Shown here piece by piece: positions 37,185 to 41,674 of a stretch of 64,000 nucleotides of DNA. Below the pieces are notes generated by a model. That model saw nothing but the letters and a program-made list of their open reading frames with translations, was not told where the DNA came from and did no database searches. Both the position numbers and the translations under genes were made by a program. Source of the DNA: Geobacter sp. AOG2 (GTDB lineage: Bacteria > Desulfobacterota > Desulfuromonadia > Geobacterales > Pseudopelobacteraceae); assembly GCF_019972295.1 (NCBI RefSeq), contig NZ_BLJA01000001.1, positions 2,794,158 to 2,858,157 on the forward strand, given 5' to 3'. The stretch's first letter is position 1, and every line of letters begins with the position of its first letter.

Positions 37185-37210
37185 GTCACAATCGGGAGAC
37201 TTGTGTCATT

Positions 37211-37288
37211 TCGGCGGCCCCTCTATCCACGGCAGGTTGGACAGGTAGCTTTGCGTCGCCAGGTTACCCTGGTTTTGCCTCTTCGATG
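37211..37288 (-). promoter_or_regulatory. GEMM-I (c-di-GMP-I type) riboswitch before the MCP
   Basis: On the minus strand: GGCAAAACC, a CCAGG-GTAA-CCTGG hairpin (GNRA loop), then the core GCGACGCAAAGCTACC, a CTGTCC/GGATAG hairpin, and the closing GGGGCCGCCGA. Order, loop type and the GACGCAAAGC box fit the GEMM-I consensus, which binds c-di-GMP or, in Geobacter variants, 3',3'-cGAMP. The terminator follows 26 nt later. Which dinucleotide is sensed cannot be told here. Confidence 0.8.
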
Positions 37289-37547
37289 AGTCTGATTTTT
37301 CATGAACCGTACAACGATGCGCGCCGGTGCCGGGCGGCGCCGGCTGGTCCCGGGACGCACCTCCCCGGCACTATAACAATGGCAAGGAACATACCAACGG
37401 ACGGCACATCCTAACAGCCTGTAACCGTTATGGTTTGCTCTACCAAACCGTTTCACTACCTCTCATTTCGATAATCATTTTCTCATTTCGGTAAATGACT
37501 TCGTCAAATTGATCATGCTAAATAACGAGAGGATCATCGACAAAAAA
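37289..37547. other. Upstream leader region of the MCP
   Basis: No gene supported. Around 37458-37500 the minus strand has two ATCGAAATGAGA-like words 18 bp apart (TTACCGAAATGAGAAAATG, ATTATCGAAATGAGAGG); these could be regulatory. I could not settle on a promoter. Confidence 0.3.
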
Positions 37548-38384: not shown

Positions 38385-38480
38385 TTATGGGACTTATGGG
38401 ACTTATGGGACTTATGGGACTTATGGGACCTATGGGACTTATGGGACTTATGAGACTTAAAGTCCTATAAGTCCTATAAA
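38385..38480. repeat. 9-bp minisatellite (GGGACTTAT) with inverted arm
   Basis: Eight to nine units of GGGACTTAT run from 38385 to about 38458, followed by the reverse units AAGTCCTAT twice. The two arms can pair. It fills the gap between the terminator and the stop of the PhnA-like gene. Confidence 0.85.
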
Positions 38481-38502: not shown

Positions 38503-38904
38503 CTATCTCCGCCCGGCCGGATTCCCCTGCCTGAGCAATTCGGACTTGACGTTGTCGTCGATATAGCTGTCTTCGATGGCGGTCCGCGCCCAGGCTTCCC
38601 GGCACCGGGCGAGCACCCGGGCGGCGCCTTCCGCTACCGAGGGGGTGTTGTTCCAGAGCGCCTTGCGGATGGAGTGCAACTCCTCCGGGGCGGCCCGCCT
38701 GCCGTGGGCCAGGTCCCGGCACCGCGTGCATAACAGCGCCAGGGTATCCATATTGGGGCTCATATCCGGCTTGTAATCCCACAGGCGCAGGTCATCCTTG
38801 CTCCCGCACCACTCGCAGGTAAACCCTGCCCGCTTGCCGACCGACTTGCCGAAGATGCCGATCGTCTCCATACGTACCTTGTTGGTTTCAAATCCCTTTG
38901 CCAT
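38503..38904 (-). CDS. PhnA-like zinc-ribbon protein, 133 aa
   Basis: ATG at 38904 (MAKGFETNKVRMETIGIFGK) after CGAGGAG; the longer frame would start inside the RNA element upstream. The chain follows the family of PhnA-domain proteins with a short N-terminal helix, a four-Cys zinc site (FTCEWCGS and ALLCTRCRDL), and a conserved C-terminal helix bundle (IRKALWNNTPSVAEGAARVL, WARTAIEDSYIDDNVKSELL). These proteins are named after the phn locus but the name does not imply phosphonate use. Function unknown; possibly a DNA- or RNA-binding or regulatory role. Controlled by a GEMM-like leader. Confidence 0.75.
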   Translation of the reverse strand: MAKGFETNKVRMETIGIFGKSVGKRAGFTCEWCGSKDDLRLWDYKPDMSPNMDTLALLCTRCRDLAHGRRAAPEELHSIRKALWNNTPSVAEGAARVLARCREAWARTAIEDSYIDDNVKSELLRQGNPAGRR

Positions 38905-38997: not shown

Positions 38998-39046
38998 AAA
39001 AAGGCCGGGAAGCGCAAAAGAAGTATTTTCCTTCGGCAACCCGGCC
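38998..39046 (-). terminator. Expression-platform terminator of GEMM-like RNA 1
   Basis: GGCCGGG (39046-39040), which is also the 3' strand of the aptamer, pairs with CCCGGCC (39009-39003) and is followed by TTTTT (39002-38998). The shared strand makes aptamer and terminator mutually exclusive, the layout of an ON switch. Confidence 0.7.
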
Positions 39047-39106
39047 ATCTTCGGTACGAAGATCCGCGGCTTTCCGCCCCCTCCTCGCGAAGGGTTTGGC
39101 TTTATC
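39031..39106 (-). promoter_or_regulatory. GEMM-like variant riboswitch 1 (before the PhnA-like gene)
   Basis: Minus strand: GATAAAGCCAAACC, hairpin CCCTTC-GCGA-GGAGGG with a GNRA loop, GGCGGAAAGCCGCGG, hairpin ATCTTCG-TAC-CGAAGAT, then GGCCGGGTTGCCGAAG. The order and the end GGGTTGCCGA match GEMM-I RNAs, but the core GACGCAAAGC is GGCGGAAAGC and the usual GGCAAACC is GCCAAACC. A second copy with the same changes stands at 41536-41610, so the differences are conserved. Ligand unknown. Confidence 0.6.
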
Positions 39107-39148
39107 GGAACGTGTCTTTATCGGAATATGCAATACAACTAAAGTAGC

Positions 39149-39176
39149 ATCCTATCATTTATTCATAACTAGTCAA
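39149..39176 (-). promoter_or_regulatory. Promoter for GEMM-like RNA 1
   Basis: TTGACT (39176-39171), 16 bp, TAGGAT (39154-39149) on the minus strand, about 40 bp before the aptamer. Confidence 0.5.
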
Positions 39177-39229
39177 TAATTTTAGACATTATTTTCATTT
39201 AATCCTGGCGAATGTTCCAGACTTCCCGG

Positions 39230-40135
39230 TCACCAGGTGAAGGTGAGGGCCACGCGGCCGAAGGGCGCGCCGTCCAGATTGATGTCGTTGCGGTTGCCGT
39301 CGTAGAAGACGAACTTCCGGGCAAAGGCGTAGCCCCCCGCGATCCCCATCTTGGCAAAGGGGAGGACCCGGAGGTCGACCCCGGCCACCGCCCGGTAATC
39401 CCGGTAGCTCACGACATTGGCCCCCACCGGGGGGTCGTGCAGTTGATATTCGCCGCCGGCGAACTCGGCCCCCACGTAGAGGTCGGTTTTCCGGTCCGGC
39501 TTGTAGACGACGCCGGTGCGGGGAAAGCCCAGGGCAAAGACCCACTGTTCCGATGGGATATACAACAGGCCCAGCACCGGCATGACCGGGTAGGAATGAT
39601 TCATCCCGGTGTAGGCGACCCCACCGATGAGGGACAGGCTTCGGGACGCCTGAAAATTGGCGTGGACCGCCACCGGCACCCGCACATCCCCCGCCGAGAA
39701 GCCCTTGAAATCGCTGCCGACCCCCGGCGACACCCGGACCCCCAGGGTGAGGCGCTTGTCCACATGGTACACCGCTCCCAGGTCCAGCGACAGGGTATGC
39801 AGCGACTCGGGGAGACGGGCGCTGTCCGGGGCGTCGATCTCCCGGAGCGAATACTTCAGGCCCGCGGACAGGTCAATCTTCGGGTCGATGACGAACCGGC
39901 GGGAAAAACCCACCTTCGCCTCGCCCATGGTGAGGTCTCCGCCCGTAGTGCGGATATGGCTGCCGGCGAGCCAGGTGGTGTCGGCGGTAACCTCCGAGAG
40001 CGGCTGCTCCCGTTGGGGATAGACGACCTTTTTGTCCGGCTTTGTCGTTTCATTGCTCTCCTGGGCCAAGGCCCAGGATGAGACAGCAAGTGTGGCCATG
40101 CAGCAGACGATGGACAACGAAAACCTCAAATTCAT
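39230..40135 (-). CDS. Outer-membrane beta-barrel protein (DUF6268-like), 301 aa
   Basis: ATG at 40135 after AAAGGAGATCG. Signal peptide ends ALA (about residue 24). A charged linker is followed by beta strands with repeated patterns: TTWLAGSHIRTTGGDLTMGE, VGFSRRFVIDPKIDLSAGLK, LDLGAVYHVDKRLTLGVRVS and a terminal RVALTFTW strand. The PVMPVLGLLYIPSEQWVFAL segment resembles the DUF6268 family of predicted barrels. No function is known. Monocistronic, its 5' flank is a minisatellite. Confidence 0.7.
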   Translation of the reverse strand: MNLRFSLSIVCCMATLAVSSWALAQESNETTKPDKKVVYPQREQPLSEVTADTTWLAGSHIRTTGGDLTMGEAKVGFSRRFVIDPKIDLSAGLKYSLREIDAPDSARLPESLHTLSLDLGAVYHVDKRLTLGVRVSPGVGSDFKGFSAGDVRVPVAVHANFQASRSLSLIGGVAYTGMNHSYPVMPVLGLLYIPSEQWVFALGFPRTGVVYKPDRKTDLYVGAEFAGGEYQLHDPPVGANVVSYRDYRAVAGVDLRVLPFAKMGIAGGYAFARKFVFYDGNRNDINLDGAPFGRVALTFTW

Positions 40136-40163
40136 TCGATCTCCTTTGGACTGGGGATAAGAG

Positions 40164-40368
40164 GTATGGGGGGTATGGGACTTATGGGACTTATGGGACT
40201 TATGGGACTTATGGGACTTATAGGACTTATGTGACTTATAATTCCTATTAGTCCTATTAATTCCTATTAGTCCTATTAATTCCTATTAGTCCTATTAATT
40301 CCTATTAGTCCTATCAATTCCCATTAGTCCTATTAATTCCCATAAGTCCCATACCCCTAAAGTCCCAC
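40164..40368. repeat. Minisatellite: GGGACTTAT array facing an 18-bp ATTAGTCCTATTAATTCC array
   Basis: About six GGGACTTAT/AGGACTTAT units (40172-40240) face about seven units of the reverse type, arranged as an 18-bp higher repeat TCCTATTAGTCCTATTAAT (40240-40368). The two halves can pair into a long AT-rich stem. It fills the gap between the DUF6268-like gene and the stop of the amidohydrolase gene. Confidence 0.85.
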
Positions 40369-40373
40369 AACAA

Positions 40374-41147
40374 TCATTCCCCGCCCTTCCCTGGCCGATA
40401 AAACCTCACGGCATTCTCGCACAGGACCCGCCGTGCGCCTTCCTCCCCCAGGGCTCCGACCACCAGGGCGAAATCGTCGTCCCGGTAGGGGCGGGGCGCG
40501 CGGGTGGAGGGGAGGTCGGTGCCGAACATCAACGCCTCGGGATTGGCGGCATACAGGGCTTGCAGGGCGGTGCGCACGTCGAAATCCACCCGGCCGAAGC
40601 CGGTGGCCTTCACATGGACGCCGCGCTCCACCAGGGCCAGCAGCGTGCCGAAGCCGTCCCCGGTAAGCCCCAGATGGTCGATGCTCACGGCGGGCAGGGC
40701 CGCCAGGGTGGCGAAGAGCGCAGGCAACTCACGGGAATCGGCGTACAATTCCACGTGCCAGCCCGCCAGTTCGTGGACCCGCCGCGCCATGGCGTCCAGA
40801 TGACCGATCTCCTCCGAACCGCCGCGCTTGAGGTTGAAGCGGACGGCGCGTACCCCGGCCCGGTCCAGCTCCAGCAATTCGGCGTCGCTTGCGGTGGCCG
40901 GCACCTGGGTCACCCCCACGAATGCGGGGCCGAGCTGCCTGAGGGCGTGGACCAGGTAGGTCTGGTCGAAGGCCTGGAAGGAGCCGGAGACCACGGCACC
41001 CCCCGCCAGGGCGTACCGCTTCATGCGGCCCAGGTAATCGTCGCAGGTGAACGGCTCCGGCAGATAGCCGTTATTGGGGACCAGGGGGAAACGGTTGTCG
41101 ATGATATGCAGATGTGCGTCGAAGAGTTTGAAATCCCGGGATGCCAT
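40374..41147 (-). CDS. Amidohydrolase-2 family metal-dependent hydrolase, 257 aa
   Basis: ATG at 41147 (MASRDFKLFDAHLHIIDNRF) after CAGGGGGACC. It has the family N-terminal HxH (DAHLHI), a TIM-barrel pattern with VSIDHLGLTG (metal His) and ALMFGTDLPSTRAPRP (catalytic Asp), and the conserved C-terminal RVLCENAVRFYRP. Relatives hydrolyse lactones such as 2-pyrone-4,6-dicarboxylate or decarboxylate aromatic acids; the substrate here is open. It is the second gene after GEMM-like RNA 2 and a 79-aa small protein gene. Confidence 0.85.
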   Translation of the reverse strand: MASRDFKLFDAHLHIIDNRFPLVPNNGYLPEPFTCDDYLGRMKRYALAGGAVVSGSFQAFDQTYLVHALRQLGPAFVGVTQVPATASDAELLELDRAGVRAVRFNLKRGGSEEIGHLDAMARRVHELAGWHVELYADSRELPALFATLAALPAVSIDHLGLTGDGFGTLLALVERGVHVKATGFGRVDFDVRTALQALYAANPEALMFGTDLPSTRAPRPYRDDDFALVVGALGEEGARRVLCENAVRFYRPGKGGE

Positions 41148-41217
41148 GGGGTCCCCCTGAGGTGGTATCTGACGGCCGGCGGCTCCATTGCGGCATTCCG
41201 GGCTGAAAAAGCGGCGC

Positions 41218-41457
41218 TCAGCGCGGCACATGCCATCCGTAGGCCCGCCGGTCCCCGGGGCCGCCCGGAACCAGCATGCCCTGAAGGCTGCGGTGATTGG
41301 GGTGGATGCAGTAGCTGCTGCTGGTGCCGGCGGGAACGGCATAGCGGCAGGCGGTGTTGTTGGACAGACACCGGGAGAAGTCCTCCACCACGTGCTCGGT
41401 TGCGCATTGATTCAGGTCCGGCTCTTTTCCGGAAACATTCTGAACGGGTATGGCCAT
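41218..41457 (-). CDS. Small Cys/His-containing hypothetical protein, 79 aa
   Basis: ATG at 41457 (MAIPVQNVSGKEPDLNQCAT) after GAGGAG. Three Cys (QCATEH, SRCLSNNTACRYA) plus SSSYCIHPNHRSLQG make a possible zinc or disulfide knot; the tail is Gly/Pro-rich (VPGGPGDRRAYGWHVPR). No family recognised. It is the first gene after the GEMM-like RNA and 70 bp before the amidohydrolase gene, so the two are probably one operon. Confidence 0.5.
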   Translation of the reverse strand: MAIPVQNVSGKEPDLNQCATEHVVEDFSRCLSNNTACRYAVPAGTSSSYCIHPNHRSLQGMLVPGGPGDRRAYGWHVPR

Positions 41458-41505
41458 GGGTGCTGCATCTCCTCTCGGCCGTGCCGGCCGGTTTGTCACG
41501 CGCGC

Positions 41506-41550
41506 AAAAAGGCCGGGTCCTCGGAAGAGCACTCCTCCGGCAACCCGGCC
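41506..41550 (-). terminator. Expression-platform terminator of GEMM-like RNA 2
   Basis: GGCCGGGT (41550-41543), shared with the aptamer, pairs with ACCCGGCC (41518-41511) and is followed by TTTTT on the minus strand. Confidence 0.7.
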
Positions 41551-41610
41551 ATCTTCAAGGTGAAGATCCGTAGCTTTCCGCCCCCTCCTCGCGAAGGGTT
41601 CGGCTTTATC
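41536..41610 (-). promoter_or_regulatory. GEMM-like variant riboswitch 2 (before the 79-aa / amidohydrolase operon)
   Basis: Minus strand: GATAAAGCCGAACC, hairpin CCCTTC-GCGA-GGAGGG, GGCGGAAAGCTACGG, hairpin ATCTTCA-CCT-TGAAGAT, GGCCGGGTTGCCGG. It differs from copy 1 in several bases that keep pairing (for example the second hairpin, closed by A-T instead of G-C), a sign of selection on structure. Confidence 0.6.
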
Positions 41611-41646
41611 GAGGCGTCACGGCTGAACTATATAATTTGTTACATA

Positions 41647-41674
41647 ACTATAGCATTATCCCGTAGTTATTCAA
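41647..41674 (-). promoter_or_regulatory. Promoter for GEMM-like RNA 2
   Basis: TTGAAT (41674-41669), 16 bp, TATAGT (41652-41647) on the minus strand; same spacer length and same distance to the aptamer as for copy 1. Confidence 0.5.

Follow-up and report, generated by a model that had tools for sequence, protein, structure and literature searches.

Two leader RNAs on the minus strand of a 64,000-nucleotide stretch of the Geobacter sp. AOG2 genome (the window) resemble GEMM-I riboswitches and carry changes in two conserved boxes of the aptamer core. The original prediction took these changes to affect residues that contact the ligand, and suggested recognition of another compound. The question raised by the locus is what the box changes amount to, and which ligand they imply. 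The two aptamers and their key residues (Vc2 numbering) are as follows.

39031-39109, minus strand: aptamer 1, GEMM-I / c-di-GMP-I type by RF03167, RF01051 and our own covariance model; G20 at 39100, C21 at 39099, G46 at 39074, A47 at 39073, C92 at 39036
41535-41613, minus strand: aptamer 2, GEMM-I / c-di-GMP-I type by the same three models; G20 at 41604, C21 at 41603, G46 at 41578, A47 at 41577, C92 at 41540

The numbering was set by alignment to the Vc2 sequence, and at the key positions it is consistent with the consensus lines of Rfam.

Both RNAs strongly match an established family of riboswitches, a result of the sort that the original prediction had listed as counting against it. Run over the 64-kb window, RF03167 (c-di-GMP-I-GGC) scored 69.1 bits for aptamer 1 and 68.0 bits for aptamer 2 (E = 2.9e-14 and 6e-14; gathering cut-off 59 bits), and in a whole-genome search RF01051 (c-di-GMP-I) scored 66.0 and 59.4 bits (cut-off 35 bits), bearing out the prediction of two minus-strand elements of GEMM-I-like layout at these places. 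Our own covariance model gave 97.4 and 94.3 bits. The GNRA-capped P2, P3 and the 3' end are present in both aptamers as first described. In a model-fitted alignment of homologues, 19 of the 23 pairs of the P2 and P3 helices are changed on both sides and 92.4% of cells are paired; this covariation exceeds that of all shuffles and all slides, and agrees with the compensatory changes originally noticed in the second stem. Energy folding of the aptamers alone did not recover the full ligand-bound fold and gave stabilities not clearly above those of shuffles (z = -1.1 and -1.7); the basis for the structure described here is instead the covariance models together with covariation.

In Vc2, c-di-GMP is contacted by G20, A47 and C92 (PMC4744006). 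All three are retained in both window aptamers. Among aligned homologues A47 and C92 are invariant, with A47 in 101 of 101 distinct homologues and C in the column assigned to C92 in 114 of 114 aligned matches. The altered boxes read G20-C21-C22 and G42-G43-C44-G45-G46-A47, and the change from GGC...CGC to GCC...CGG is an exchange of the partners of pair 21-46 at the base of P2: G-C in the RF01051 consensus, this pair is C-G in both aptamers, with pairing kept. Exact patterns, alike at every other fixed position, were searched in 141 genomes of the order and matched 77 C21-G46 elements (in 42 genomes) and 62 G21-C46 elements (in 45 genomes), but no element with C21 and C46 or with G21 and G46; backward-read control patterns gave no matches. 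The flip is thus a compensatory change. In a sample of 395 genomes from across the phylum, 57 have the C21-G46 pattern. The same picture came from aligning 101 distinct elements to a covariance model (pair 21-46 C-G in 80, G-C in 20 and broken in none; pair 22-45 C-G, U-G or U-A with one exception), although 12 of the same sequences had been used to build that model, which makes the exact-pattern counts the cleaner evidence. In the pilM cGAMP switch of G. metallireducens, NMR identified the lower G-U pair of P2 as U15-G38 and placed G39 beside it (PMC9262584). Put in register, G39 corresponds to G46, which means that the window RNAs are not alone in carrying the flip.

The only other difference of note lies at position 43, which is G in both window copies instead of A and is either A or G among homologues; A43 to G is thus no conserved change. 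Judged from these alignments, the altered core is mainly one compensated pair (21-46) together with a variable position 43, and the view that two conserved boxes and the ligand contacts had been changed finds no support. Compared with Vc2 of Vibrio cholerae (RF01051), the window RNAs share the P1/P2/P3 layout, the GNRA-capped P2, the interhelical C44-G83, the three contact residues and a score above the family cut-off; they differ in having C-G rather than G-C at 21-46, and G at position 43. They belong, as ordinary members, to an established riboswitch family, and a compensated flip mimicked a changed core. A striking change in a riboswitch box may, as here, be a compensated base-pair flip, and should be read with that caution.

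Each aptamer is accompanied by a terminator and a promoter-like site.

38998-39046, minus strand: intrinsic terminator 1, a stem of GGCCGGG (from the aptamer 3' strand) and CCCGGCC with UUUUU after it
41506-41550, minus strand: intrinsic terminator 2, in which GGCCGGG(UU) pairs with (GA)CCCGGCC, followed by UUUUU
39149-39176, minus strand: promoter-like site 1, TTGACT-16-TAGGAT with TG before the -10, 9/12 in a consensus scan
41647-41674, minus strand: promoter-like site 2, TTGAAT-16-TATAGT with TG before the -10, 9/12 in a consensus scan

The terminators fold with -28.1 and -31.3 kcal/mol, respectively (z = -5.7 and -4.5 relative to shuffled sequences); GGCCGGG is part of both stems, in line with the expected sharing of the aptamer 3' strand. 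Copies elsewhere in the genome carry GGCCGAG/CTCGGCC and GGCCGAA/TTCGGCC, indicating that the terminator arm tracks the aptamer strand. Pairing of the terminator with the aptamer 3' strand was found in 47 of 55 elements of the window kind (shuffled tails, 3 of 55), 24 of 25 A20-type elements (shuffled tails, 1) and 5 of 21 canonical elements (shuffled tails, 0). With terminators swapped between elements, 176 of 271 trials still gave a match, as the arms resemble one another, and these counts show a common layout more than co-evolution. It is likely, from the extended -10 sites directly upstream of each aptamer, that both switches have promoters of their own, as was proposed; chance alone would give 1.0 site of this quality in the region, which tempers this part of the prediction.

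Without ligand, the nascent RNA would fold the terminator, using the aptamer 3' strand GGCCGGG as its 5' arm. Ligand binding would keep this strand in P3/P1 and block the terminator, allowing RNA polymerase to continue into the gene. The same terminator layout has been described for the pilM ON switch (PMC9262584), and by analogy the ON direction proposed for both window switches is probable.

The genes that these switches would serve are listed below.

38503-38904, minus strand: gene of switch 1, a 133-aa CxxC...CxxC protein of no firm family (Pfam/NCBIfam search)
41218-41457, minus strand: gene of switch 2, a 79-aa cysteine-containing protein
40374-41147, minus strand: Amidohydro_2 (PF04909) protein, Pfam E = 5.8e-23

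The 133-aa protein had been called PhnA-like, a name that is abandoned here, as it has no PhnA match in Pfam or NCBIfam. The small Cys protein and amidohydrolase expected behind switch 2 are both in place; the two genes lie on the same strand with a short gap and are probably cotranscribed. In sister species each switch is again found with its gene: orthologues 72% identical to the 133-aa protein follow the same aptamer type in two congeneric species (G001 and G002), and orthologues 59-62% identical to the 79-aa protein do so in two species (G002 and G003). Genes downstream of other homologues mostly encode predicted exported proteins (signal peptides judged by eye), and include cytochrome c, chemotaxis-receptor, metallo-beta-lactamase-fold and multicopper-oxidase domains. 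A DUF6268 (PF19783) protein, encoded on the minus strand at 39230-40135, lies between the units of switch 1 and switch 2. Short tandem repeats at 38385-38459, 40174-40239 and 40239-40349, with a 9-base unit TTATGGGAC and a 19-base unit TAATTCCTATTAGTCCTAT, flank this gene and its neighbour on both sides.

The genome (3.92 Mb, one contig) contains 16 matches to RF03167 and 16 to RF01051. Clear G20/C21-G46 elements number four (both window aptamers, and those at 1544814 and 3848997), seven are A20/C21-G46/U22.G45 elements of the cGAMP type, three are canonical G20/G21-C46 elements, one is a U20 relative and one is a degenerate copy. Canonical aptamers thus occur together with flipped-pair aptamers of the G20 and A20 kinds, a natural set which would permit a clean test of how the P2 closing pairs affect selectivity between c-di-GMP and cGAMP. 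In a wider set, whose sampling was biased towards the window kind by the search patterns, 23 distinct A20 aptamers combine C21-G46 with U22.G45, and one has G21-C46. By its predicted gene content the genome is able to make both signals, since it has 33 GGDEF-domain matches, one of them Hypr-type. Hypr cGAMP synthases are marked by a Ser/GGDEF combination (PMC6456294), and one GGDEF gene (L095) has the Hypr Ser in place of Asp together with the GGDEF motif; the Hypr-type count is at least one, the pattern having missed some of the 30 GGDEF domains scanned.

In-line probing of related aptamers from Desulfobacca acetoxidans found that G at the equivalent of position 20 favours c-di-GMP, and that A there improves c-AMP-GMP binding (PMC9481103). 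With G at position 20, the window RNAs would be expected to bind c-di-GMP rather than cGAMP. We consider it likely, on sequence grounds, that both belong to the class-I c-di-GMP (GEMM-I) riboswitches and work as ON switches of transcription. That they are instead cGAMP (GEMM-Ib) or promiscuous c-di-GMP/cGAMP switches is unlikely. Such a reading draws on their resemblance to the cGAMP switches of the same genome, with which they share C21-G46 and the layout of the terminator; on the flipped pair and U22.G45 of the A20 aptamers of the wider set and the near-universal occurrence of this layout in A20-type elements; on the Hypr GGDEF; and on the finding that P2-base changes can tune selectivity (PMC9262584). 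The G. metallireducens pilM / Gm0970 cGAMP switch likewise has C21-G46 at the P2 base and an ON-type terminator using the aptamer 3' strand. However, it has A20 and U22.G45 where the window RNAs have G20 and C22-G45, and the same two positions speak against cGAMP more generally: position 20 is G, not A, in both copies, nearly all A20 elements carry U22.G45, and the G-type relatives that have been measured favour c-di-GMP (PMC9481103). Somewhat more doubtful is a separate GEMM-I lineage of G20/C21-G46/C22-G45 aptamers in which the P2-base change shifts affinity or specificity, for instance a tuned or dual c-di-GMP/cGAMP sensor. The literature searched, in which coverage of cGAMP-riboswitch papers was incomplete, contained no binding data for any aptamer of this composition. 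This weighs against the c-di-GMP reading, as do the mixed and mostly unassigned functions of the downstream genes and the grouping of most such elements in the masked tree described below, which may point to a specialised property.

It is improbable that the window RNAs form a variant class for a third ligand, neither c-di-GMP nor cGAMP, the direction in which the original prediction leaned and at which the Rfam label might hint. RF03167, the GGC variant, is the best-scoring Rfam model and both RNAs exceed its cut-off. Its consensus reads GACGCGAAgC against GACGCAAAgC in RF01051, and is distinguished there by G at position 47; we infer that 'GGC' in its name stands for G20-G47-C92. Position 47 is A in both window copies. 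The apparently defining residue of the variant is therefore missing, and the label mirrors overall similarity, giving no evidence for altered specificity. Overall similarity can evidently earn an RNA an Rfam variant label even when the seemingly defining residue is absent. Elements of the window kind also form a mostly pure group in a tree with the diagnostic columns masked (40 of 41 elements, support 0.965; 9 label changes between the kinds, which separate, against a shuffle mean of 40), although about 80 bases per element carry little signal and the tree is not relied on for descent. Against a new ligand stand the canonical contacts G20, A47 and C92 and a flipped pair that is compensated across the order and widespread. 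It is least probable, to a very marked degree, that the window elements are remnants or non-functional copies: a further copy in the genome does look degenerate, but in the window pair the P2/P3 changes are compensatory, the terminators are intact, promoter-like sites are present and pairing with the same genes is conserved in sister species. The degenerate copy, at 719838-719917 (G000:C1, L016), has a broken 22-45 pair and lies upstream of an apparent operon with 6-phosphogluconate and glucose-6-phosphate dehydrogenase genes (identified by eye). The reading preferred here remains that of c-di-GMP ON switches.

A third aptamer in the window was absent from the original prediction.

37210-37289, minus strand: canonical c-di-GMP-I aptamer (G20, G21-C46, A47), RF01051 56.1 bits

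It lies upstream of a chemotaxis-receptor (MCP) gene identified by Pfam. In this aptamer and in the canonical one at genome positions 839716-839795, before a CheW-like gene, the terminator hairpin contains CTTTGCGT, which is complementary to the aptamer box ACGCAAAG. Pairing of CTTTGCGT with ACGCAAAG could form an antiterminator, in which case these two canonical aptamers would be OFF switches, opposite in sense to the probable ON pair nearby. Tandem aptamers, with an A20 element followed by a G20 element before the same gene, were observed at L119 (1309/1494), L116 (1653/1466), L040 (1313/1501), L054 (1243/1501) and L063 (1701/1501), and are possibly two-signal switches.
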